In this document: positions 1-16,117 of the stretch, in pieces
Numbering within the stretch: the first letter of the stretch is position 1
Layout: each line of letters begins with the position of its first letter
From: a virus
Strand: one strand, 5' to 3'
Virus record (IMG/VR): IMGVR_UViG_3300046557_000778
Coordinates: 1 to 21,031 of that record
Length of the DNA: 21,031 nucleotides
The notes under the pieces: model-generated
The model's database searches: none
What the model saw: only the letters and a program-made list of their open reading frames with translations
What the model was told of the DNA's origin: nothing
Position numbers and translations under genes: made by a program

Positions 1-38
1 CGCCGGACGACAATCCCAAACCTAAAAACAAGAAATGA
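1..38 (+). CDS. C-terminal end of an upstream gene (partial)
   Basis: Reading from base 3 gives an open frame encoding PDDNPKPKNKK and ending in TGA at 36-38. That stop overlaps the next ATG as ATGA, the same tight arrangement seen at 3839-3842. The other two forward frames do not give a comparable gene end here. The Lys/Pro-rich tail is typical of many small phage proteins but says nothing about function. Only about 11 codons are visible, so this is an inference from the overlap architecture. Confidence 0.35.
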   Translation, partial: PDDNPKPKNKK

Positions 39-1282
39 ACGACTGGACACAGAATGAAATCGCTTTGCTCGCCTCCGGGCTGAGCAACAAAGAAGTGGCC
101 GCCCGAACCGGGCGCTCGGAACCCGCCATCCGCGGCAAGCGGCAACGCCTCGCCGCCGAAGCGGAGGCGACGCCCGTAGCCTCCAAGGGGGCGCCCACCA
201 CGTTCGAGCAGGACAAGACGGCGAAGTCCAATGAATTTTGGAAGGGCGAATACCAAAATCTCGAGAAGAAATACAAGCAGGCGGTCGCGCATGCGTCCAT
301 CGCCGAGCAGCTCGTGGAGCTGGCGCGCGAAGTCGCGCCCGTGAGTTACAACCCGTTCCCCGCGGCGGTGCCCTACAAGGCCGGCGAGGACAAATCGCAG
401 TCCGCCGTCCTCATTCTGAGTGACACGCATGTGGGCCAGGAAATCACGCCCGACCAGACCCTCGGGTTTGGCGGCTACAATCTGGACCTTTTTCTCGCGC
501 GCCTGAAGACCGTGGAGTCGTCCATCACGTCCATCGTCACGCGGCACACCACCACCCAGGTCGACGAGCTCGTCGTCTGTTTCGGCGGTGACCTTATCCA
601 CGGTGCGTTGAACCACGGAGCCGAGGCCGCGCAAAAAATGACGCTGTTCGACCAAACGTATGCCGCCGGCCACGCCTTCGCGCAGTTCTTGCGCAACCTC
701 GCGCCACGTTTTCCCTTGGTCCGCGTTGTGGGGACCGTGGGCAACCATCCCCGGTTCGCGAACCAGAAACGCATGCCGACAGAAAACCGTTTCAGCAATC
801 TCGATATGTTCTGCCTCTCGTATACCGAAGCGCTGACCCGCGAGCTGGCCAACGTGCATTGGACGCTCGACAAGCAACCCACCGCGCTGTTCGACGTGCA
901 GGGGTTCCGCTTCGAGCTGCTCCACGGGGACACACTCCGTGGCGGCGACCGCGCGCTCGGCATCCCGAACCATTCTGTAGCTCGGCACGTCTCGGGCCGC
1001 TCGCAGCTGTTCGCCAAATACGGGCAGCGCTCGCCCGACTACTACCTGTGCGGGCATCTGCACCGGGACATTGTGCTTCCACACGCGAAGGGTCGCTTTA
1101 TTGTCAACGGCGGCTTCCCCGGCATCGACGGCTACGCGCTGGCGGAAAACTTTTCGCCGGTCGACCCCACGCAAACTTTCTTCTTGATGCACCCCAAATA
1201 CGGGCAAACCGCGAGCTACAGCATTTCCCTGAAGTTCGCGGAGGTAGGCTCCACGCCGCCGTATGTGCTGCCGAAAATTTGA
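35..1282 (+). CDS. HTH-fused calcineurin-like metallophosphoesterase
   Basis: This 415-aa protein has an N-terminal Myb/SANT-like helix-turn-helix (residues 3-40, with WTQNEIALL and LSNKEVAARTGRS), a Lys/Glu-rich helical linker, and a metallophosphoesterase domain from about residue 124. All metal-binding blocks are visible in order: D130-x-H132 (LILSDTHVGQ), GGD186, GN237-H238, H297-G-D299 and CGH341-L-H343. The set is complete, so the enzyme is probably an active two-metal phosphoesterase or nuclease. The HTH suggests a DNA substrate or DNA targeting, which is inference. It begins at an ATG overlapping the preceding stop (ATGA) with no clear SD. Its own TGA lies inside the -35 box of the next promoter. 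Homologues of this fold include SbcD/Mre11-type nucleases and phosphodiesterases, and the exact substrate cannot be read here. Confidence 0.85.
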   Translation: MNDWTQNEIALLASGLSNKEVAARTGRSEPAIRGKRQRLAAEAEATPVASKGAPTTFEQDKTAKSNEFWKGEYQNLEKKYKQAVAHASIAEQLVELAREVAPVSYNPFPAAVPYKAGEDKSQSAVLILSDTHVGQEITPDQTLGFGGYNLDLFLARLKTVESSITSIVTRHTTTQVDELVVCFGGDLIHGALNHGAEAAQKMTLFDQTYAAGHAFAQFLRNLAPRFPLVRVVGTVGNHPRFANQKRMPTENRFSNLDMFCLSYTEALTRELANVHWTLDKQPTALFDVQGFRFELLHGDTLRGGDRALGIPNHSVARHVSGRSQLFAKYGQRSPDYYLCGHLHRDIVLPHAKGRFIVNGGFPGIDGYALAENFSPVDPTQTFFLMHPKYGQTASYSISLKFAEVGSTPPYVLPKI

Positions 1283-2769: not shown

Positions 2770-3375
2770 ATGAAAAACATCCTCCCATACATCAAGGCGC
2801 TCGGCGTCGTATTCGGCTTCATCATCGGCTTTGTGTTGTTCAACTTCCTGGCGGTCGAATACCCGGGTCCGCTTTTTTGTGCTCTTGCTCTGGCGATGCT
2901 CGCCCTGGTCACTATCGGGCTCAGAAAATATTTTTTCGGTTTGGCCCTGGCGGCGTGTATCTCGTCGTCCGCCAACGCCGCCCCGCTGCCGACGTTCAAA
3001 CACCTGCCCGGTTATATGGTCCTCCGTCAGTGTGACCCCTTCAGCTGTGACGCGGTCCGCATGCTGCAGGCCCGCGGTATCCCGGCACGCCAAATCCTTT
3101 TCAAGTGGTCACAATACGGGGGCCAGCAGGGTTTCCACGCCGCGGTGTTGTTCCAGTTCGAGGGTAAGTTCTATTTCATGGACAACCAGCGCATGGGCGC
3201 GCGCCCGGTCGCCGGCAAGACGGACCTGGGCTGCGTGAACCACATTGCGATGGACTTTTACACACAGTGCTGGATGGTGGACCGACAGGGCCGGCGGGTC
3301 GCGCCGCGGAAGATGGCGGACCTTTTTGCGCCGGCCCCCGCGTGGATGAAACAATTACAGGAGAACACCAAGTGA
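2770..3375 (+). CDS. Membrane-anchored transglutaminase-like cysteine peptidase
   Basis: The 201-aa product (ATG 2770; an in-frame TTG at 2764 would add two residues) begins with two or three hydrophobic segments (about residues 5-25, 33-50 and 55-70). The last resembles a signal peptide ending ANAAPLP. A small domain follows with a plausible catalytic triad: C93 in SCDAVRMLQARGIP, H123 in GFHAAVLF and D138 in FYFMDNQ. The C..(A)..L...GIP, HAxVL and DN pattern matches the bacterial transglutaminase-like cysteine proteinase fold (BTLCP/LapG-type). A second Cys, C88, precedes it. The domain is likely exposed outside the inner membrane, where it could cleave host surface or envelope proteins, or assist lysis. 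The substrate is unknown. It overlaps the next gene by 4 nt. Confidence 0.6.
   Translation: MKNILPYIKALGVVFGFIIGFVLFNFLAVEYPGPLFCALALAMLALVTIGLRKYFFGLALAACISSSANAAPLPTFKHLPGYMVLRQCDPFSCDAVRMLQARGIPARQILFKWSQYGGQQGFHAAVLFQFEGKFYFMDNQRMGARPVAGKTDLGCVNHIAMDFYTQCWMVDRQGRRVAPRKMADLFAPAPAWMKQLQENTK
3359..3363 (+). promoter_or_regulatory. Shine-Dalgarno deciding a GTG start
   Basis: AGGAG lies 8 nt upstream of GTG 3372. Together with the GTGA overlap with the preceding stop, it selects this GTG over an in-frame ATG at 3267 that sits deep inside the upstream gene. It is one of few clear SD sequences in the window. Confidence 0.65.
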
Positions 3376-3842
3376 GCGCCATTGTTTTTCTTCCGTTAAC
3401 GCAGGGACAGGTCGCGGTTATCGACTTCGCCGACATGGAAGAATTTGGGCGCCGCAAATGGCACGCCTTGTGGAATCCCCGGTCGAACACATTCTACGCA
3501 CTGCGAAAGGAGGGCTGGGGGCACGTTTGGTTGCATTGTGAACTGTTGAACACCAAAGGCGTTGACCACCGAGACGGAGATGGGTTAAACAATCAACGGG
3601 CCAATCTCCGTCCGGCCACCCATGCCCAAAACATGCGCAACCGTGTCAAACGCGCGGCGGCGACCTCGAAGTTCAAGGGCGTCTATTGGTGCCCTGACGC
3701 TCGGAAGTGGCGCGCGAATCTACAGGTCGCCGGAAGACGGATATACCTGGGAAAATTTCATAGGGAGGAAGACGCCGCGCGGTCGTATGATGCAGGTGCC
3801 CGCGCATATTTTGGCGAGTTCGCGAAACCCAATTTTCCATGA
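3372..3842 (+). CDS. HNH endonuclease with C-terminal AP2 DNA-binding domain
   Basis: The 156-aa protein has a central HNH-type block, with D65-H66 in VDHRDGDGLNN followed by NLRPATHAQNMRNR. A C-terminal AP2/ERF-like domain follows (about residues 98-156: FKGVYWCPDARKWRA, YLGKF, EEDAARSYDAGARAYFGEF). This HNH-AP2 architecture is well known from phage free-standing homing endonucleases, where AP2 supplies DNA binding. The start is GTG 3372, chosen from the SD and the GTGA overlap. The stop overlaps the glycosyltransferase start (ATGA). It probably acts as a selfish mobile gene nicking or cutting homologous phage DNA. The target site cannot be deduced. Confidence 0.88.
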   Translation: MSAIVFLPLTQGQVAVIDFADMEEFGRRKWHALWNPRSNTFYALRKEGWGHVWLHCELLNTKGVDHRDGDGLNNQRANLRPATHAQNMRNRVKRAAATSKFKGVYWCPDARKWRANLQVAGRRIYLGKFHREEDAARSYDAGARAYFGEFAKPNFP

Positions 3843-4933
3843 CCCCGCTTCGGATACATCTGCTCGGCTTGCCGAATTGCCCCGTCAGCGAAGACTTTTC
3901 ACTCGACGGGTTCGCCGCCGCCGGCCACCGGTTCTGCCGCATGATGCGCTCCCTGGGCCACACGGTCTACCTTTACGGGGCCGAGGGCTCCACCGCCCCG
4001 TGCACCGAGTTCATCAACGTGATGCCCGAGGGCGACCGCAAGCGCTACCTGGGGCAGACGGAATACCAGCACGCGCCCGTGGACGGAAAAACCCCGCTCT
4101 ACCAACAGTCGAACCCCTGGATGATTGCCGAAATCGCCAAGCGCAAGCAATCGCGGGACTTCCTGCTCTCCATCGGGGGCCACTCGCAGAAGCCAGTTTT
4201 TGACGCGCACAAGGACCTCCTGGGCGTGGAGTATTCCATCGGGTATGAGGGCAACTGGGCGCCGTTCCGGGTGTTCGAGAGCTATGCGTGGATGCACTTC
4301 TGTTATGGGGCGCAACGCATCTCTAACGCGCGTTTCTTCGATACGGTCATCCCCGTCTTTTTTGACCCCGACCAATTTCACCTCGCCACACCGGACGACT
4401 ATTTTCTTTACGTCGGTCGACTGACTCACGAAAAGGGGGTCCGCGTAGCGTGTGACGCCGCGACCGCTGCCGGCGTGAAATTGAAGCTCATCGGTCACGG
4501 CGGCAGCCTGCGGAACATCACCGGGGGTCACGAGTATTGTGGTGCCCCGGACTGGAAGACCCGCAACGAGATGATGGCCCGGGCGCAGGCGGTGTTTTGC
4601 CCGTCACTCTACCCCGAGCCGTTCGGCTGCGTGGCCGTGGAGGCGCAGCTTTGCGGCACGCCGGTCATTTCAACGGACTGGGCTGGGTTTACGGAGACGG
4701 TGGTGCACGGCATGTCCGGGTTCCGATGTCACTACCTGGGGGAGTTTGCGGACGCCTGCCGGCAGGTGAACACCCTGGACCGGAAAGCCATTCGCGCGCG
4801 GGCAATCCAAAAATATTCGATGTATACCCTCAAGCACGACTATCAGCGTTATTTCGAGCGGCTGAGCCTGCTCTGGGGGAAGGGGTGGAACACCCCCGAG
4901 GCCCCCCACGCTTGGTCATACGACTGGTTTTGA
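3839..4933 (+). CDS. GT4-family (GT-B fold) glycosyltransferase
   Basis: This 364-aa protein has the usual length of a single-domain GT-B enzyme. The C-terminal half shows DYFLYVGRLTHEKGV (start of the donor-binding domain, about residue 185), a loop with KLIGHGG, and the GT4 signature YPEPFGCVAVEA. That signature carries E260 and E268 in the EX7E arrangement, followed by GTPVISTDWAGFTE. The N-terminal Rossmann half begins IHLLGLPNCPVSEDFSLDGFA and includes a Gly-rich acceptor loop. It overlaps the HNH-AP2 stop (ATGA) and closes the plus-strand operon. Donor sugar and acceptor are unknown. Phage GT4 enzymes may modify host surface glycans, virion proteins or DNA. No base-modification enzyme is seen next to it. 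Its last 18 bp overlap the convergent gene. Confidence 0.88.
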   Translation: MTPLRIHLLGLPNCPVSEDFSLDGFAAAGHRFCRMMRSLGHTVYLYGAEGSTAPCTEFINVMPEGDRKRYLGQTEYQHAPVDGKTPLYQQSNPWMIAEIAKRKQSRDFLLSIGGHSQKPVFDAHKDLLGVEYSIGYEGNWAPFRVFESYAWMHFCYGAQRISNARFFDTVIPVFFDPDQFHLATPDDYFLYVGRLTHEKGVRVACDAATAAGVKLKLIGHGGSLRNITGGHEYCGAPDWKTRNEMMARAQAVFCPSLYPEPFGCVAVEAQLCGTPVISTDWAGFTETVVHGMSGFRCHYLGEFADACRQVNTLDRKAIRARAIQKYSMYTLKHDYQRYFERLSLLWGKGWNTPEAPHAWSYDWF

Positions 4934-5718: not shown

Positions 5719-5755
5719 CAACGTCAATCTTCCACCGGGTTGACCGGAATGTCAA
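5719..5755 (-). promoter_or_regulatory. Candidate promoter before the 55-aa gene
   Basis: TTGACA (5755-5750), a 17-bp spacer and GAAGAT (5732-5727) are followed by 8 nt before ATG 5718. The -10 keeps the conserved A at position 2 and T at position 6 but is otherwise poor. The -35 lies in the Leu-Asp-Ile codons near the giant gene's end. Confidence 0.3.
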
Positions 5756-8700
5756 GTTCGCCCTGAGCGGCATTTTTCCGCTTCGCCGCCGCGCGGGCGC
5801 GTTCCTCGCGGCCTTGGCGAGTGGCTTCTTCCTTGGCCCTGACCGGGATGTTGTAAGTCTCGGGGTGTTCGCCGGGCTCCAGCGACTTCAGCCAATATGC
5901 GTAGTCCGATTTCGCCGCGCCGACATACCCGGTCCAGTCTTTCTGTTCCCAGAGATGTTTTTCCGAGAACCAGACCAACGCTTGCAGCGAGTCCGGCGTG
6001 GTGCCAAACTTTTCAGCGGCTTTTCGGAACGCGGATTGCGCAAGGTTAAAGTTCTCCGCGGAAATTTGCCATCCCGCCGGCGGTGCGACGCGCCAGCGAC
6101 CTTTGAGGGTGTCCTCGGACTGCGCGATACGCATCAGGAATCGTGTGGCCCAAATGTCGATGGTGGCGTCGTGTCCTTCGCCTGTGAGGTTCGCCAAAAA
6201 GTTCCGCACCTTCGGGCCGCCCACGTCCTCGAGCCACGTGCCGGAGATGACATCGAGCACAGGGAACGAATGCATGCCGTAAAGCTTGCCGCCTTCGCGC
6301 TTGGGCAAAATCTCGTGCTTGTCCACCCACCACGTCAAAAAGTTGTTGCGCAGACCTTGGGCCGCGGCACCCGTGCCGGCTTTCCACTTCTTGCCCTTCT
6401 CGGCTTCCCACTCGGCGATTTCAGGCGTGCCACCGGTCTTCCACTGCTCGCGTCCCTCGAGATATTTTTTCACGAACGGCTCATACTCGCCACGCTTCAC
6501 GGCGTTCCAGGCGTCCACCGCGTAGGCGAAGTTCGGTTGCACGCCGTTCTGCGGCGACGTCGCCGCCAACAGCTGCGCGAACAGCGAAGCGTCCTTGCCG
6601 AAAAATTTGTTGATGAGCTTCACCGCGTCGGCATACCACGTCAGGCCGGCCTTCATGGATTCGTCCTTGAGCGCCTCGTGAGCTTCGGCCACGATTTTGT
6701 CCGCGAGCGCGTCCGAAATAACTTCGTGCGCCGGCGCGTCCGGGTTCTCCCGCACCGCGTCAAGCGCGAGCGGCGTTTTGTCGAGAACGGCTTCCTCGTC
6801 ACCGGGGACGAGCTTGCCGCCTTGCAGCTTGAGCTTGCCTTTGGAGTCGCGGATGAACCGCGTGGGGTATGCCTCGGGATACGACTTGGTGTATTCCTCG
6901 TTGTGCTTGTCCGCCGCGGCTTCTGCCGTCTCGGGCGTCAGCTTTTCGCCAGGGAGATACCCGCCGCGTGCCGCGACGTCCGCTTTGCTGCCGAACGTGG
7001 CGTCCTTGACGAAAACCGAGTTGCCCACGCTCACGGCCTGGGTTCCGCCGGTCACCGGTTCGTCGGTTCCCTTCTCGTAGAAATAGTCGTGCTTGGTGGG
7101 ATTGAAACCAACCTCGGTCCACTCGGAGAGGTCCGCCGGCAGTTCACGCGAGGGATTCCATTCGCCCTCGACGGTCGCGATGGGAAACTTCGCCGCGCCC
7201 TCAGCGATTTTTGCCGCGCCCTTGGTGTTGGAGAAAAAGGTCGGGTTGTCCACGGTCGCGATGGAGTCGTAACCAATCCGCTTGCCCACGCGCCCGCCTT
7301 CGGCTTTTTCGTGGACGGTGATGACGTATTTGCCCGTGCGGTTATAAGCCGGGATGTCAATCCGCAGGCCGACCGGGGTGCCTTCATCCAGGTCGCGCGC
7401 GGCTCCGACAAAAGGTTTCTTTTCCTCGCTCAGCGCGTCGGTGATGGCCTCGTCCGTCGGAATTTCCGGCGTGAGGTAACCCTCGCGGCTGCGCGCGATT
7501 TGAATGGCCGAGGGACCCCGCTTCGGAGCGACCTTGTTCGGGTCAACCGCATCCACTAGGTCCATTAAATCCTGTGCCGGATTTTCACTCTCAAAAAGCT
7601 TGTTGTCCGCCATCGTGTCCGTCACCTTGCCCTCGTTATCCAGGAGCGTGATTCGCGCGGAGTCGATGTCTTTGGCGTGGTCGTCGAGCAGCACTTCAAT
7701 CGCGCGCTTGCCCTTGCCACGGAAAAATTTCTGGTTCGCTTCGATGGCCAGCTTGCCGCCGTATTCGCGAACGCGGATGAATCCCTTGTTGAGCGCGGCT
7801 TGTCGGTCCTCGACCGTGGCGTCCTTGGAGAATTCGGTTCCGTATTGTTTGTTCAACTGCTCGGAGTGTTCCCCGAGCCACGTCTGATGATAGTCCGTGT
7901 CGAGTCGGATGAACTGCCCGTCGGGAAGTGCCCAACCAGTCGGTCCCTTGCCCTTCGGCTTTTGTTCCTCGGGCACGTTGTATTTCGAGTAGTCCGTCTC
8001 CGCGACGCGTTTCCGCGCGGCGGCTTCGGATTCTCGGGTAATCGCTTTGACGGTGATATCGAGGTCCCCCTTGATGTCTTCAATCGCCTGACGAACCGGA
8101 CCCTTGCGCCTCGCTTCCGCCGCTTTGAAACGCGCTTTCGTCTCCAGGTAATTTTCCCCGGCCTGCAACGCATCCGCGGCCTGGGCGATTTCTTTCGGGT
8201 CCCGGAGGACCGTGTTACCCGTGCCGCCGGCATCAACCGTTTTGCCGCGGGCCATGTCGAAAATGGCTTCCTGGTTATTCGCACGGGCAAAAGCCAAAGA
8301 CGACTTGCGGTGCTTCTGGTCCACGATGGCGTTCACATCCACGCTGACCTGGGGCCGGCCTTCGGCATCGGGCTCCGACAGCCGGAAGATTCCCGCTTTG
8401 ATGTTCTCATTCCCCAGAAGGCCCTTGTAGGGCTTCAACGCCGCCGCGACGTTCTTCGCGTTCAGCTCTGCCGCCGGCAGGTTCACGCTAGCGAGCGTGA
8501 CGACGTCCAGCGAGGCGTCCTCGGGCGGGACAAAAACGGTTCCGTCCCCGTTGAAAGTTTCACCATCTTTTTCGCCATTGCGAATGGACTTCAGTTCTTT
8601 TTCAGAAAGGAAGCCAGCGCGTTCCGCGGCTGCGGCACTGACTTCCGCGAACGGAGCAGTGCGGTCCGGGAACGCGCGGCGCCAGCCGGATGGACCGGCG

Positions 8701-11700
8701 GCAGAAGCGGTGTCCGTGGCGGCTTCAATCGCCTCACGGAAAAATTGGGCCTTGGTCGCGAGCGCGTAAGCCTCGTCCAGCTTGTCGAGGTTCCCCGCCC
8801 GGGCTTCTGCGAGGGCAGAGACTTGGGCAGCGGACGCCTTGGACTGCGCCTCGCGCAACGCGTTCAACTCGTCCTTCGACGTGAGGTTCAGCCCCAGCTC
8901 ATACGCCGACCCCGTCAACGTATTCTTCGGACCGAACCGTTTCATCCAGTCGTCCGGGGAATCCGCGAGCACGTCTGCGATAGTTTTGTCCACAGGCTGG
9001 TCCGTCAGGTATCCCGCGCGGGCGGTGTCCGTCTGTCCGCCGCGTCCCGTTAATTCGGGGGCGCGTTCGGCTTTGACGATGTCCGCAGCGTTGAGTCGCT
9101 CGACGACCGTGTGCAGGTCCCCCACCGGCATGCCGGCGGCGCGCAGACGATTGCGCAGCGGGTTCGTCTCCTTGATTTCTACGGGTCCGCGGCCCCCGGT
9201 CACCTTCTCGGGATAAATCGGAATGTCGGTCCCCGGCGCGATGCGTTCGGACACGTCGCCCTGGGCAGCGCGGATTTCCTGCGCCTTAATGTTGGCAGGT
9301 AACTTGCCTTTTTGGGCGCGCGCCGTCTCGGGCGGGCCGACGTCTTTACCTTGAAGCAGATTAAGCCATTGTTCCTTGGCGTCGCCTAAAACTTTTCCCT
9401 CGCCTTGCTCACGCGGGATTGCCGCACCGAGCTCGTCGCCGGGACGAACCAGCTGCTTGCCCCCGCCACGAAAACCTCGGTCCTGGTTATCCCAGTAGGC
9501 GTTCAGGTCCGACAAAAGTTCGTTGGTGCCGGCTTCGGTGAGCGCACCGTTCGCGTCCGTCTCCCACGGGATTTCTTCGCCCGCGGATTTCCCCCACTGC
9601 ACCGCGCGGTCCACGTTGGAGAGAACCTTGTCCACGCTACGGGCGACGAGCTGCGGTTCCCCGCTTTTCGTCTGCTCCCATCGCGTGGGATATTTTTTCC
9701 CGGCATGCAGCTCGCGCTGTTCTGGCGGCAACCCGCGGCCTTCTTCCACCTCGGCGGCGCGTTCGGGCTCCGTCGGCTTAAAAGACGCTTTGGGAGCGCC
9801 GGCGTGTTCGACGGTCAGCCCGACGCTTTCATCGAGTGCCTTGTTCACTTCCGTCACCGCTTGCTCGTTGTCCTTGCCTTTGGCCCAGGCCGCACCGACC
9901 CCGGTATTGGTGACCTCGGCACGGGCGGCGGTGGCCTCGGGGGTGGAAACCCCACGGGAGGGAGACACCGTCGGCGGGACTTCGGTGGGTGCCGGCGCGG
10001 GAGGGGTCGCTGCCGGGGCCACTTTCGGTTGTGCCGACGGCGTCTCAAAATTGAGCTCGCCTTGAGCGGGAATTTCTTTGGGCGGGGGCGTGGTAAAATC
10101 CAGCTCCGGCTGCACGGATTCGACGGGAACTTCGACCGGAGCCGCCGGCGCTTCAGCCACCGGCTTCACCTCGGGAGCAGTCGCTTGCTGCGCGGCGCGC
10201 TGGTCACGCTCCGCTAAAATTTCACCGCTCGCGTTCTCGAGCGCCTTGCGCAGGCTATAGCTCGGCTTCAGGTTCAACCCCGGGGTGCCGCGGCCTGCCG
10301 TCATGTCGATACCCAGCGCGTCACCCAAGGTCAACGCCGCGTCCAGCATTTTTGCGCGGAACGAGGATTTCGGTTTCGGCAGCCCGAGTGACTCGAGCGA
10401 CGTGTTGTAAAGCAGGTTCGCCCAATTGTCGGCGATGAATTCGCTGCGGACTTCTTGCATCACGCCCGGCACGTCCGCGGCAAAACGGCTGCCCAAAGAT
10501 TTTTCGTAATGCTGCCGCAAGGCTTCCAGTTCTCCGGGCGTGTATGCCTTGCGGACCGCGTCGTGCAGTGCTTCGCGTCCCGCGGGCTCCATTACGGATT
10601 CCAGGACGTGGGCAAACTCGTGTGGAGCGTTCGCGGAGCCTTTGACGAGCGTAACCATCTCGCCCTTGCCCGCGTCATCTGCCATCCAGATTTTTGAAAC
10701 GCCGCGCGCTTTGGATTCCTGGGTGACCGCCGCCTGTTGTTCCGGCGTGAGCGATTTGCCACCGTTCGCACGGACCGTATCGTCAGCGATGGCCTTGGAA
10801 AAAGCCGCGTCGTCGACGAGGAAAAGTTTCTTGCCGAACGGGCGCAGCGTTTCGCGCAAGCTATCCACCATGTTCCGCGCGTTAGACGGCGTGGACGCGG
10901 CGACCTGCTCGTGAACTTTGTTCAGCTCGGTGAAGTTATCGTAGCCAGGAGACGGGGTCGCTTCCCAGTTGATTTGGCCCGGGTCGAAATATTTTTTCGC
11001 GCCGGCTTCGGCGACCGCGCCTTTGACGGCTCCGAGGGCAGAGTGCACGGCCCCGCCGACGGCACCCACGCCGAGCAGCCCGCCTTGCGGTTCGTCGGTC
11101 GCGAGTGCCAGCGGCGCAGTTCCCACGGCGCCCTTGACGGCGCCGGCCACGGGCGGTTGAACAAATTTTGAAACGGTCTTCGCCGCGTTGACGAGCTTGG
11201 CGCCCGTCGTGGTTTCCAGACCCAGGGACAGCTGCCCTTTAGGGGCGGCCCCGGCGGCTTCGCCGATTTCCCGAACGACCTGTCCCGTCTTCTGTAAAAC
11301 GGGGGCCGCGATACGCGCCGCCAGGATGGCCTTGTGTGGGACGCCTAAAAGACTCAGTCCGGCGCCGACGCTAATGCCCTGGCCCGAGATGGGAAGCGCA
11401 GAGGCGATGACCTTACCGGTTTTTTCGATGCCCGTGCCGACGAGCTGCGTGGTTTTCGCCGCGGCGGTTTGGGAAAGCTGTCCGAGGTAGTTCAGCGCTT
11501 TGCCCGCGCCAACTTCGTTGGCCGCGGTAAAAAGAACTTTGCCACCGACGCCCACGGCCTTGAGTCCGCCGGCAGTGGCGACGAGCGTGACCGGGTCCGT
11601 CAAGCTCAGTAGCTTGATGTTTTCCGGGTTGAGCTGGACGCCTTCGCTGACGAGGTCTTTGACGGTTTGGCCGGACGAGATACCTTGGACGGTGTCGTGC

Positions 11701-12638
11701 CAGCCGAGGTCTTTGAATAACTCGCTTTTGACTTCTTCATCAGAAATTTTGCTCCAGTCTTTGCGCTCCATCGAGACACCCGAAGGGGTCACCTTGAGCT
11801 GTTTCAAATTGAATCCGGGACCCGTCAGCTTGCGCGCGCCCTGGCGCACCATGTCCTGAAGCGAGCCCACGGCGAGCTGCGTTCCGCCGATGGCCTCGGC
11901 GATGGCGGCCTCGCGGTTGTCGTCTGTCATTTTATCCCACTGCGCGCGAAGCGCGGGGTCGGCACTCTCGTGACGAAACTTTGCCGTGATGTCGTTAATC
12001 ACCGGACCAATGGCGATATCAGAAACATTCTCGAGCCGCTTCGGCAAAGATTTGAGAATTTCCAAAAGCAGGGGACCCGTTTCTTTCTTGGCGGATTCCC
12101 AGACCTTGTTCGCCGTGGTGCCCACGACTTTTTGCGCGCGATAAGTGTCGAGCGCTTTTTTGTAGCGATTGGGGTCCTGAAAAATATTGTCGCGGTTCGT
12201 CGCGATGTGCTCGAGCACATTGAACTTCGGGTCCTTGGCGAGAACATCGGGCTTCTCAGTATCGAGTCGGTCGGCCAACGGGACGCCGCGGAATTCGGGC
12301 TCCTCCCCAACAGAGCGGGGGTCGACTTCTTGCAACACGCTAAAAGGGTCCACCTCCTGCAGTCCGGCGAACGCTTTATCTTCCTTTTCTTTTTCAGCGG
12401 CGGCTTTCGCGGCCTCCTCGGGCAGCATCGGCGGGGCTTCGATTCCCTTTTCCGCGAGTGCGGCCCGCATCCCTTTGCTGGACTGGTCGAGCTGCGCCTG
12501 AACTTCCGGCGTGATGGGCTTCGAGGATTTCAGTCCCCGAGCCGTGCCGCCGTAGACGGGCACCTCAGCTGGCACAACCGGGACGGGCGTGTCCGTGAAA
12601 GATTCCCCTGCCCCTAAATCCTCAATGACGCTCGGCAT
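5724..12638 (-). CDS. Giant 2304-aa polyvalent/internal virion protein with zincin motif
   Basis: An uninterrupted 2304-codon gene follows the 417-aa internal protein by 2 nt (TAATTATG). Visible layout: a disordered N-terminus; Ala/Gly-rich, possibly membrane-active segments (about 345-400, 418-450 and 500-543); a metallopeptidase motif H673-E-F-A-H677 with a possible third ligand E733 (SEFIADNW); and a Pro/Glu/Ala linker (about 813-925). Helical regions follow. Domains resembling those of large phage polyvalent proteins come next: about 1566-1680 (GWALPDGQF, TWLGEHSEQL), about 1750-1890 (GYDSIATVDNPTFFSN, TEVGFNPTKHDYFYE) and about 1990-2270 (SPQNGVQPNFAYAVDAWN, FPVLDVISGTWLEDVG). Size and position fit an ejected virion protein that acts in the host after injection. 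Peptidase activity is inferred from the motif only. No transglycosylase or polymerase motif was seen. Confidence 0.75.
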   Translation of the reverse strand: MPSVIEDLGAGESFTDTPVPVVPAEVPVYGGTARGLKSSKPITPEVQAQLDQSSKGMRAALAEKGIEAPPMLPEEAAKAAAEKEKEDKAFAGLQEVDPFSVLQEVDPRSVGEEPEFRGVPLADRLDTEKPDVLAKDPKFNVLEHIATNRDNIFQDPNRYKKALDTYRAQKVVGTTANKVWESAKKETGPLLLEILKSLPKRLENVSDIAIGPVINDITAKFRHESADPALRAQWDKMTDDNREAAIAEAIGGTQLAVGSLQDMVRQGARKLTGPGFNLKQLKVTPSGVSMERKDWSKISDEEVKSELFKDLGWHDTVQGISSGQTVKDLVSEGVQLNPENIKLLSLTDPVTLVATAGGLKAVGVGGKVLFTAANEVGAGKALNYLGQLSQTAAAKTTQLVGTGIEKTGKVIASALPISGQGISVGAGLSLLGVPHKAILAARIAAPVLQKTGQVVREIGEAAGAAPKGQLSLGLETTTGAKLVNAAKTVSKFVQPPVAGAVKGAVGTAPLALATDEPQGGLLGVGAVGGAVHSALGAVKGAVAEAGAKKYFDPGQINWEATPSPGYDNFTELNKVHEQVAASTPSNARNMVDSLRETLRPFGKKLFLVDDAAFSKAIADDTVRANGGKSLTPEQQAAVTQESKARGVSKIWMADDAGKGEMVTLVKGSANAPHEFAHVLESVMEPAGREALHDAVRKAYTPGELEALRQHYEKSLGSRFAADVPGVMQEVRSEFIADNWANLLYNTSLESLGLPKPKSSFRAKMLDAALTLGDALGIDMTAGRGTPGLNLKPSYSLRKALENASGEILAERDQRAAQQATAPEVKPVAEAPAAPVEVPVESVQPELDFTTPPPKEIPAQGELNFETPSAQPKVAPAATPPAPAPTEVPPTVSPSRGVSTPEATAARAEVTNTGVGAAWAKGKDNEQAVTEVNKALDESVGLTVEHAGAPKASFKPTEPERAAEVEEGRGLPPEQRELHAGKKYPTRWEQTKSGEPQLVARSVDKVLSNVDRAVQWGKSAGEEIPWETDANGALTEAGTNELLSDLNAYWDNQDRGFRGGGKQLVRPGDELGAAIPREQGEGKVLGDAKEQWLNLLQGKDVGPPETARAQKGKLPANIKAQEIRAAQGDVSERIAPGTDIPIYPEKVTGGRGPVEIKETNPLRNRLRAAGMPVGDLHTVVERLNAADIVKAERAPELTGRGGQTDTARAGYLTDQPVDKTIADVLADSPDDWMKRFGPKNTLTGSAYELGLNLTSKDELNALREAQSKASAAQVSALAEARAGNLDKLDEAYALATKAQFFREAIEAATDTASAAGPSGWRRAFPDRTAPFAEVSAAAAERAGFLSEKELKSIRNGEKDGETFNGDGTVFVPPEDASLDVVTLASVNLPAAELNAKNVAAALKPYKGLLGNENIKAGIFRLSEPDAEGRPQVSVDVNAIVDQKHRKSSLAFARANNQEAIFDMARGKTVDAGGTGNTVLRDPKEIAQAADALQAGENYLETKARFKAAEARRKGPVRQAIEDIKGDLDITVKAITRESEAAARKRVAETDYSKYNVPEEQKPKGKGPTGWALPDGQFIRLDTDYHQTWLGEHSEQLNKQYGTEFSKDATVEDRQAALNKGFIRVREYGGKLAIEANQKFFRGKGKRAIEVLLDDHAKDIDSARITLLDNEGKVTDTMADNKLFESENPAQDLMDLVDAVDPNKVAPKRGPSAIQIARSREGYLTPEIPTDEAITDALSEEKKPFVGAARDLDEGTPVGLRIDIPAYNRTGKYVITVHEKAEGGRVGKRIGYDSIATVDNPTFFSNTKGAAKIAEGAAKFPIATVEGEWNPSRELPADLSEWTEVGFNPTKHDYFYEKGTDEPVTGGTQAVSVGNSVFVKDATFGSKADVAARGGYLPGEKLTPETAEAAADKHNEEYTKSYPEAYPTRFIRDSKGKLKLQGGKLVPGDEEAVLDKTPLALDAVRENPDAPAHEVISDALADKIVAEAHEALKDESMKAGLTWYADAVKLINKFFGKDASLFAQLLAATSPQNGVQPNFAYAVDAWNAVKRGEYEPFVKKYLEGREQWKTGGTPEIAEWEAEKGKKWKAGTGAAAQGLRNNFLTWWVDKHEILPKREGGKLYGMHSFPVLDVISGTWLEDVGGPKVRNFLANLTGEGHDATIDIWATRFLMRIAQSEDTLKGRWRVAPPAGWQISAENFNLAQSAFRKAAEKFGTTPDSLQALVWFSEKHLWEQKDWTGYVGAAKSDYAYWLKSLEPGEHPETYNIPVRAKEEATRQGREERARAAAKRKNAAQGELDIPVNPVED

Positions 12639-14383: not shown

Positions 14384-15646
14384 TTAAGCTTTGGCCGTCT
14401 TCATCTGTTTGATTTCCTTGACCAGCGCTTTCACGCTGGCCAGGGCCACGCCGATGGCGTCCACGATTGGAATCGTTTTCGCGTCACCGGTGCCGCTCCC
14501 AAAAAGCACGTCCCAGTCTTGTGCCATCGGGCCAGTATGCTGACCTTGCGGCACGTTCTCAACGTCTTTCTTATATTCCCAGTTGGACACGGGCAGCTTG
14601 GATACCTTCTCCAAAATTTTCGCCTCGTCGAGCTCCTTGATGTTTTCCTTGACGTTGCGGTCGGACATCATGCCAGCCATGCCCATCATGGAACCCATGG
14701 AACCCATCGACGAACCCCCGCCACCGCCGCCGGAGCCGCCCGCGCCGCCGTATGCGCCGCTCGCCGTGCCGCCAAAGTTGCCGGCGACTTGGTTCAACGC
14801 GGTATCACGGATGCGCGCAAACTCCAGCGACTTCCATGCCTTCAAATTTGCCAGCTGCGAATTGACGTCGCGCTGTGCGGTTCGGCCACCCAGGTCGAGG
14901 TTTAACACCTCGCGGCCCGTGAGTCCCGTGCTGCTAGCTGGCGTGGCGGCTTCAGTCAGCCCAAAAATGGACGCGGAGCGAGCCAGCCCTTCGCGTTCCG
15001 CGGATTGAATCGTCGGAAAAATCGAGCCGAGAATCTTGGCGCGCGATTCGGTCATCTGCTGCGCGGTGTCCGCGAGTTTCGACGCTTCCATCGTGCGCGC
15101 TTGGCGCAAACGTTCGCCCTCGCTGCCGAGGACCTTGGAGACGACGCCGCCGACCGTGCCCGCCTGGGGCTTAATACCCGCCTGCGCGGCCCCGCCGACG
15201 CCGGCGCGGACGAGCTCGGCCTGATACTCAGCCGGCAAGTTCCCGCCCAACGCGAGGACGTCGTTCGCCCGGGCGATGACGTTTTCCTTGAGCTTGGCGA
15301 GCTCGGGGTTCTGGTCGATGTTTTCCTTGAAAAGTTGCTTGGCCGTCCGCGTGGATTCCAGCGCGGAAACGGGCGTCTGCGCCTGCGCAAGGATGTCCTT
15401 GCGGGCGACTTGGCCGGCGGCATACAAGTCGGGCTCGTATTCCTTCATCAGCGACACTCGGCGGTCGAGGTATCCCTTGTCGTATTGCTGGACGAGCCCG
15501 GAGATACGTTCCAAATCGTAATCCTCCTTCAGGGCCTTGCGTTGCTCGCGCAGCCCATCGCGCATGAAAGCGTATGCCTCGCGCATCGCCTTCTCATCGG
15601 TGAATCGTTCGGCGATTGACGCCGCGGAACCAATTGCGTAACCCAT
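14384..15646 (-). CDS. Coiled virion protein with C-terminal S74 chaperone domain
   Basis: The first 290 residues of this 420-aa protein are mainly helical and charged, lacking fibre-like beta repeats. A Gly/Ser/Met-rich linker (about 290-327) leads to a C-terminal domain starting S328-D-R-N-V-K333 (SDRNVKENIKELDEA). It continues with WEYKKD, TGPMAQDW and VDAIGVALASVKALVKEIK. This matches the peptidase S74/intramolecular chaperone domain, which trimerises and self-cleaves in endosialidases and other phage fibres, with Ser and Lys in the SDxxxK block implicated. Here it is attached to a probable internal or assembly protein. The gene starts 4 nt (TTTT) after the GNAT stop. Retention of self-cleavage is not certain. 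Confidence 0.75.
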   Translation of the reverse strand: MGYAIGSAASIAERFTDEKAMREAYAFMRDGLREQRKALKEDYDLERISGLVQQYDKGYLDRRVSLMKEYEPDLYAAGQVARKDILAQAQTPVSALESTRTAKQLFKENIDQNPELAKLKENVIARANDVLALGGNLPAEYQAELVRAGVGGAAQAGIKPQAGTVGGVVSKVLGSEGERLRQARTMEASKLADTAQQMTESRAKILGSIFPTIQSAEREGLARSASIFGLTEAATPASSTGLTGREVLNLDLGGRTAQRDVNSQLANLKAWKSLEFARIRDTALNQVAGNFGGTASGAYGGAGGSGGGGGGSSMGSMGSMMGMAGMMSDRNVKENIKELDEAKILEKVSKLPVSNWEYKKDVENVPQGQHTGPMAQDWDVLFGSGTGDAKTIPIVDAIGVALASVKALVKEIKQMKTAKA

Positions 15647-15650
15647 AAAA

Positions 15651-16112
15651 TTAAAGTCGTTTCCGAAAACCGAGCTCGATTACTTCGTAACCGCGCTTCT
15701 CAAAAATTGCTCGTCCGCCATCCTCGTTGATGGTGAACGTGTGCCCGTGGACAATGCTCGTGCAGCCACGCAGCCGGGCGTCTGTCTCAGCTTGGTCCAG
15801 CAAGGTGCGCCCGATGCCCTGGCCCCGACACTCCGGCATGACGTAGAGAAAAACCATCATGGCGGTCAGCTCGCCGTTGAACGTGTCGCGCATGTAGGTG
15901 GTCCCCACGATGCCGCGAGCGCCCGCCGTCGGCCACTCGGCCAAAATGCTGCCGTTGCCCCGGGCGATGAGCGGCCCCCAGATTTCTTCCACTGCGCGCA
16001 TGTCCAGCCGCCCGGGATACCGGACGTCCTCAAAGTAACGCTGGAACAGGGGCCGCAAAGCGGGAATCCCGCTCGGAAGGACCTGGGCTAACGCTGTGGC
16101 ATGCTCTTGCAT
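15651..16112 (-). CDS. GNAT-family N-acetyltransferase
   Basis: This 153-aa protein has the length and layout of a single GNAT domain. Motif A is ECRGQGIGRTLL (about residues 94-105), with R96-G97-Q98-G99-I100-G101 forming the acetyl-CoA pyrophosphate loop. The preceding beta-4 strand is AMMVFLYVMP. The C-terminal part shows the usual late motif IFEKRGYEVIELGF. The start is ATG 16112; a GTG at 16115 is an adjacent alternative. The acceptor is unknown: it could acetylate a host or virion protein, or a small molecule. It is an unusual cargo between a fibre gene and an internal virion gene. A TTGACA lies 34 nt upstream, suggesting possible independent expression. Confidence 0.88.
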   Translation of the reverse strand: MQEHATALAQVLPSGIPALRPLFQRYFEDVRYPGRLDMRAVEEIWGPLIARGNGSILAEWPTAGARGIVGTTYMRDTFNGELTAMMVFLYVMPECRGQGIGRTLLDQAETDARLRGCTSIVHGHTFTINEDGGRAIFEKRGYEVIELGFRKRL

Positions 16113-16117
16113 CACTA

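Follow-up and report, generated by a model that had tools for sequence, protein, structure and literature searches.

A giant gene of an uncultured phage encodes a protein built of a constant N-terminal chassis and, behind it, a string of exchangeable modules. A short hinge motif recurs at the joints of this string, and relatives use four forms of it, here called dialects, each throughout its own lineage. We propose, at close to an even chance, that this is a polyvalent, probably virion-packaged protein whose hinges serve as recognition sites, the most likely use being to free the modules by proteolysis. The inter-module hinge and its lineage dialects are new, and a preliminary description of this DNA had missed them along with the exchangeable modules.

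A giant gene in a virion-structure operon

The window analysed here is a stretch of 21,031 nt. The preliminary description had reported that one gene fills a third of it, and this is borne out: a single open frame with an ATG start runs from 12638 to 5724 on the minus strand (5724-12638), encodes 2304 aa (P0001) and takes up about 33% of the window. All features of the gene given below lie on the same strand. The whole window was recovered in reversed orientation, at 100% identity, at positions 36353-57383 of a 74,199-bp viral contig (G001), and the gene is complete inside that contig. Nucleotide differences between P0001 and its close relative L012 number 132, 80 and 322 at codon positions 1, 2 and 3, a bias toward third positions which indicates that the frame is selected as protein. 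This excess, together with the complete copy in G001, argues that the gene is real. The long plus-strand frames that face it look like by-products of composition.

The source is an uncultured, roughly 74-kb podovirus-like phage, and the gene is part of its virion-structure operon. The same neighbours flank it in ten related contigs, in the order tail-tube B, collar-like, GNAT, S74-chaperone protein and 417-aa protein, with a 210-aa protein where the contig extends; "tail-tube B" and "collar" are names given from gene order, with no profile match supporting either. Across clades the tail-tube and collar neighbours are 48-55% identical and the zincin domain of the giant protein is about 25% identical. 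T7-like phages keep their internal core and ejection proteins at the corresponding position. The gene had been placed in the ejection-protein position, and it does follow the tail-tube genes in an order kept in all ten contigs; searches of Pfam, PHROG and NCBIfam gave no match of P0001 to any ejection protein.

Several other genes in the window were recognised. A stand-alone GNAT acetyltransferase (15651-16115, minus strand) lies within the tail/virion operon and is 35-69% identical in the ten related contigs. Beside it, a 420-aa protein (14384-15646, minus strand) has a C-terminal Peptidase_S74 (intramolecular chaperone) domain and is not obviously a tail fibre. On the plus strand, opposite to the structural genes, a GT4-type glycosyltransferase (3839-4933; PHROG 3408, 2.5e-68) adjoins a protein with HNH endonuclease and AP2 domains (3267-3842; PF13392, 5.7e-6; PF00847, 5.8e-6, below the cut-off), which is likely a homing-type endonuclease. 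A calcineurin-like phosphoesterase/exonuclease (35-1282, plus strand; PHROG 284, 5e-37) has an N-terminal part that looks DNA-binding.

Profile searches say little about P0001 itself. Pfam returned DUF7178 at the C-terminus (E 3e-12), Phage_L5_gp82 just under the cut-off and nothing else, and PHROGs matched these two regions to two uncharacterised families. Searching 50,697 phage records by tblastn with the whole protein gave a single short match, and that collection contains no close relative of the family. Relatives were sought in viral contigs with the entire protein, two of its modules, the core domain, the zincin and DUF7178 as queries, and about twenty distinct ones emerged, mostly of 1.3-3.0 kaa, some cut by contig ends. 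All of them come from uncultured contigs and proteins within a clade are related, so the counts given below are not independent. With the core domain as query, no relative turned up among bacterial and archaeal genomes.

A fixed chassis with a zincin-like domain

Residues 1-1206 are colinear in the clade-1 relatives and form a fixed chassis, while the rest of the protein consists of modules gained and lost. The chassis includes an Ala/Gly-rich stretch (residues 361-545; 11004-11558; 33-38% Ala+Gly), which the preliminary description had called membrane-like. The richness in Ala and Gly is there, and the membrane-like character is weak: no 19-residue Kyte-Doolittle window of P0001 exceeds 1.53, and no classical transmembrane segment was found. 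The long linker described earlier corresponds to a Pro/Ala-rich low-complexity stretch (residues 820-905; 9924-10181) with 27% Pro over residues 841-900. It leads into a core domain (residues 910-1206; 9021-9911), which by alignment is the most conserved part of the chassis.

Between the Ala/Gly-rich stretch and the linker lies a zincin-like metallopeptidase domain (residues 550-798; 10245-10991). The proposed ligand set, H673 and H677 of an HEFAH motif (residues 673-677; 10608-10622) with E733 (10440-10442) as third ligand, was exact in position. Among about 265 columns of the domain aligned across 21 relatives, with identities reaching down to about 21-29%, only R595, H673, H677 and E733 are invariant, which lifts the motif above chance and agrees with the predicted role of these residues in binding zinc. 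The catalytic Glu, E674, is kept in 17 of the 21 and replaced by Asp in the other four (L083-L086, clade 3), whose HDAGH motif retains all three ligands and has an altered general base. The catalytic Glu is thus not universal, and the clade-3 zincins may be weak or inactive, to judge from this substitution.

Comparisons of profiles and structures are less clear-cut. Zincin profiles built from clade 1 only and clade 2 only align over 209 columns (E 1.9e-9) with HExxH on HExxH, and hhalign of the domain against single known polyvalent zincins was not significant. Structure prediction had been suggested as a check, and it gave a divided answer. The AlphaFold2 model (pLDDT 74, pTM 0.70) has the zincin order of elements, namely helices, three strands, the HEFAH helix and a later helix bearing E733 (177-195 of the domain); in the PDB, Foldseek found nothing significant, and the zincin anthrax lethal factor ranked fifth with a weak score (E 0.35). 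Against viral predictions (BFVD) the top matches were giant phage proteins (E 0.016, below significance), followed at lower ranks by polyvalent proteins and an N4-type vRNAP, all likewise below significance.

Exchangeable modules joined by a repeated hinge

Downstream of the core, five modules were delimited in P0001. M1 (residues 1213-1339; 8622-9002) is common to clades 1-3, M2 (residues 1346-1500; 8139-8603) was defined by alignment, and M3 (residues 1541-1717; 7488-8018) is present in some relatives and absent from others. M4 (residues 1724-1890; 6969-7469) resembles Phage_L5_gp82 (PF25735, E 8e-6, just below the cut-off) and has a match in MW202701. M5 (residues 1897-2245; 5904-6950) is the DUF7178 domain (PF23802), named a glycosylase by some depositors; its AF2 model (pLDDT 74), considered for the HhH-GPD fold of DNA glycosylases, had no Foldseek match in the PDB. 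The module strings of relatives hold other families: L065 carries ART-PolyVal (2.7e-18), GNAT (5e-7) and DUF7178 in one string, L018 a possible methyltransferase (a weak nicotianamine-synthase match) and L012 a possible nucleotidyltransferase, recognised by eye; modules without a recognised family occur as well. The resemblance to polyvalent proteins noted earlier is upheld by the zincin, L5_gp82-like and DUF7178 domains of P0001 and by the shuffling among its relatives. P0001 shows three features of polyvalent proteins: disparate domains in one polypeptide, domain shuffling, and a phage, represented by the 74-kb viral contig, as its source.

The joints between these modules bear the motif R-x-[GA]-[FY]-L-[STP], present in four copies in P0001 where about 0.03 would be expected: RAGYLT (residues 1207-1212; 9003-9020), RAGFLS (residues 1340-1345; 8604-8621), REGYLT (residues 1718-1723; 7470-7487) and RGGYLP (residues 1891-1896; 6951-6968). 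At the M2-M3 joint no copy is clear. Each clade-1 protein carries 2-5 copies past its core, compared with 0.01-0.03 in shuffles, and this form was found neither upstream of the core, in the N-terminal chassis, nor in the other ORFs of the phage, nor in clade-2 proteins. Two proteins that have the M4 domain and lack HExxH show no hinge series. In clade 2 the joints instead carry F-S-[VPA], in 4-8 copies per protein vs 0.5-1.9 in shuffles, and in clade 3 F-L-P (7, 7, 3, 7 and 5 copies vs 0.1-0.34 expected). L094 has four copies of F-Q-P against 0.15 expected; L095 is incomplete and gives little information. The motif was first spotted by eye and tested afterwards. De novo enumeration of 3-mers ranked the hinge first or nearly so in P0002-P0005 and L040 and not in P0001, and is too weak to stand alone.

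Modules come and go at these hinges. L012 has one extra hinge and module exactly between two hinges, with the REGYLT hinge as the insertion site. In within-clade pairwise comparisons, 102 of 148 breakpoints of module gain or replacement fall within 15 aa of a hinge, compared with 31% for the nearer of two random positions (15.5% for a single one), the pairs not being independent. Codons of the hinges within a gene agree in 71 of 177 comparisons, where codon usage alone predicts 64.4. Hinge codons are therefore no more alike than codon usage predicts, which indicates that the hinge is conserved as protein and not as DNA.

The hinge dialect follows the core domain

On the core-domain tree the four dialects, R-x-[GA]-[FY]-L-[STP], F-S-[VPA], F-L-P and F-Q-P, require three changes, which is the minimum, so that the tree matches dialect exactly; clades 1, 3 and 4 each form one side of a starred branch. 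Dialect follows neither the zincin tree nor the tree of the C-terminal module M5, on which the clade-1 rows are scattered over several places. M2 and M5 occur in several clades, each time with the dialect of the recipient protein, and the aligned joint upstream of M2 reads FL[ST] in clade 1 and FS[IV] in clade 2. Modules therefore move between lineages and take on the local dialect.

A strict rule in which zincin clade equals hinge dialect holds for clades 1 and 2 and is broken by one protein. L087 is a natural swap: its zincin is of clade-2 type (43-48% identity) and nests in clade 2 with 100/100 support, whereas its core, module string and F-L-P hinges are those of clade 3. The dialect stayed with the core. 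On the evidence of this one protein, whatever recognises the hinges is more likely to be inherited together with the chassis, but the zincin is not singled out.

What the hinges may be for

The architecture, ligand conservation, hinge enrichment, exchange of modules at hinges and switching of dialects are read directly from the sequences; from them we infer packaging, delivery, cleavage, a cutter and functions for the modules. In the mechanism that we favour, the constant chassis (Ala/Gly-rich N-terminus, zincin, linker and core) carries exchangeable modules, of which some belong to enzyme families, and these would act early in infection. One long polypeptide, suited to packaging and to threading through into the host, would be cut by a protease, in the head, during ejection or in the cytoplasm, at the hinges, recognition sequences under selection at the protein level, to give separate module proteins. 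The first candidate for this protease is the embedded zincin and the second is a different factor, of phage or host, whose variation tracks that of the core domain. Hinge enrichment, placement outside the chassis, breakpoints at hinges, rewritten joints and invariant zincin ligands lend support to processing. Against the zincin as the agent stand the L087 dialect, which departs from its zincin, and clade 3, which keeps hinges beside HDAGH. The zincin is thus the obvious candidate and not a secure one, plausible as hinge cutter for the HExxH clades and less so for the HDAGH clade. Self-processing by the zincins of polyvalent proteins has been proposed on other grounds, with P1 DdrB as a processed example (Iyer et al. 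2017, PMC5512222); the N4 vRNAP, with its HExxH domain, is packaged uncut (PMC5512222), which counts against processing, as does the lack of a comparable hinge series in P1 DdrB.

The main rival to processing is docking without cutting, which we consider somewhat unlikely. Here the hinges would be docking or packaging motifs. A virion protein particular to each lineage, such as a portal, inner-core or scaffold protein, would grip F-x-P/T/S/V at every hinge and so impose an order on the packing of the string into the capsid or on its exit. This would fit a dialect that follows core domain and phage lineage and not the zincin, the conserved gene order in the ten contigs and the retention of hinges beside HDAGH zincins; however, the binding partner is hypothetical, and the hinges sit exactly at module borders, where cutting is useful, and are absent from the chassis. 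A purely structural virion protein, with neither effector role nor processing and with modules as decoration, seems very improbable to us. The gene does sit among structural genes and the modules of P0001 itself are without known enzymatic activity, but the strings of relatives hold ART-PolyVal and GNAT modules and the metal ligands are strictly kept.

Two further readings deny the hinge peptide any role in recognition. The zincin could be an effector whose targets, once it has been delivered, are proteins of the host, with the hinges no more than tolerated flexible linkers. Zincins do serve as effectors in other conflict systems (PMC5512222), and both L087 and the HDAGH motif break the link between zincin and hinge. 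If the hinge were a tolerated linker, however, one six-residue motif would not persist at almost all joints while its codons vary, and the joints would not change together from lineage to lineage; we judge this reading distinctly unlikely. Least probable of all is that the hinge is a recombination joint, an inert peptide left by homologous shuffling through short shared DNA. Breakpoints do cluster at hinges, yet the codon scatter led us to reject recombination at the DNA level as the cause, and homologous joints differ between lineages though the adjoining modules are recognisably homologous.

Comparison with known systems

P0001 is a member of the described polyvalent class of phage proteins, and its family seems to be unreported. 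The preliminary description's "undescribed effector" is thus too strong as a class, since zincin-bearing polyvalent proteins were described in 2017 (PMC5512222). Like the P0001 family, these are large multidomain phage proteins with zincin, ART-PolyVal, GNAT and unknown domains, strong domain shuffling and a proposed self-processing zincin (Iyer et al. 2017, PMC5512222). They differ in that the main text of that study does not mention a recurring inter-module hinge or dialect (0 matches to linker, interdomain or short motif), and in the literature that we searched, mainly outside subscription journals, we found no polyvalent protein reported to carry a hinge or linker motif. Phage P1 DdrB is also polyvalent, has an HExxH zincin, there C-terminal, and is processed before packaging (PMC5512222). 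Unlike P0001, it is short (995 aa), with few modules and no hinge series, and as a positive control for the hinge it was negative.

Among virion proteins, the N4-type virion RNA polymerase of the Schitoviridae is likewise a giant protein of the structural block with an HExxH domain, and the N4-type enzyme is ejected with the DNA (PMC12633501); unlike it, P0001 has no RNA polymerase domain that we could find. The single tblastn match linking the two (E 0.3) was set aside as chance, the aligned part being without HExxH. The N4-like vRNAP of Silicibacter phage DSS3phi2 (L024) has two HExxH motifs far apart, at residues 1178 and 2403. As with T7 gp16 and podovirus ejection proteins, the P0001 gene is the last and largest of a block of tail-tube and internal-protein genes; it differs in having no Pfam, PHROG or NCBIfam match to those proteins.

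Short joints of form [FY]-S-[RFQ] stand beside ART and zincin modules in proteins of unrelated phages, F116 gp60 (L076), vB_PaeM_USP_18 gp31 (L074) and the DarB-like protein of Y7 (L072). Judged by motif, these are possibly the same kind of hinge. In F116 gp60 and USP_18 gp31, where the form is [FY]-S-[RF], joints are few and the phages are remote.

Implications for polyvalent proteins

More tentatively than we propose processing itself, we suggest that the family may be a polyprotein of prokaryotic viruses whose joints follow a private code, in which a lineage motif would be read by a cognate protease, traded joints would be rewritten, and the code would drift as a set. Such an arrangement would resemble the polyproteins of eukaryotic RNA viruses. 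Whether the metallopeptidases of polyvalent proteins process their own polypeptides, and at which sites, has been a standing question since 2017. A repeated, lineage-specific joint motif gives exact predicted sites together with natural variants, in the form of four dialects, a zincin swap and a Glu-to-Asp active site, and so allows a direct test of self-processing. The joint motif would also offer an easy way to locate module borders in giant "hypothetical" phage proteins.
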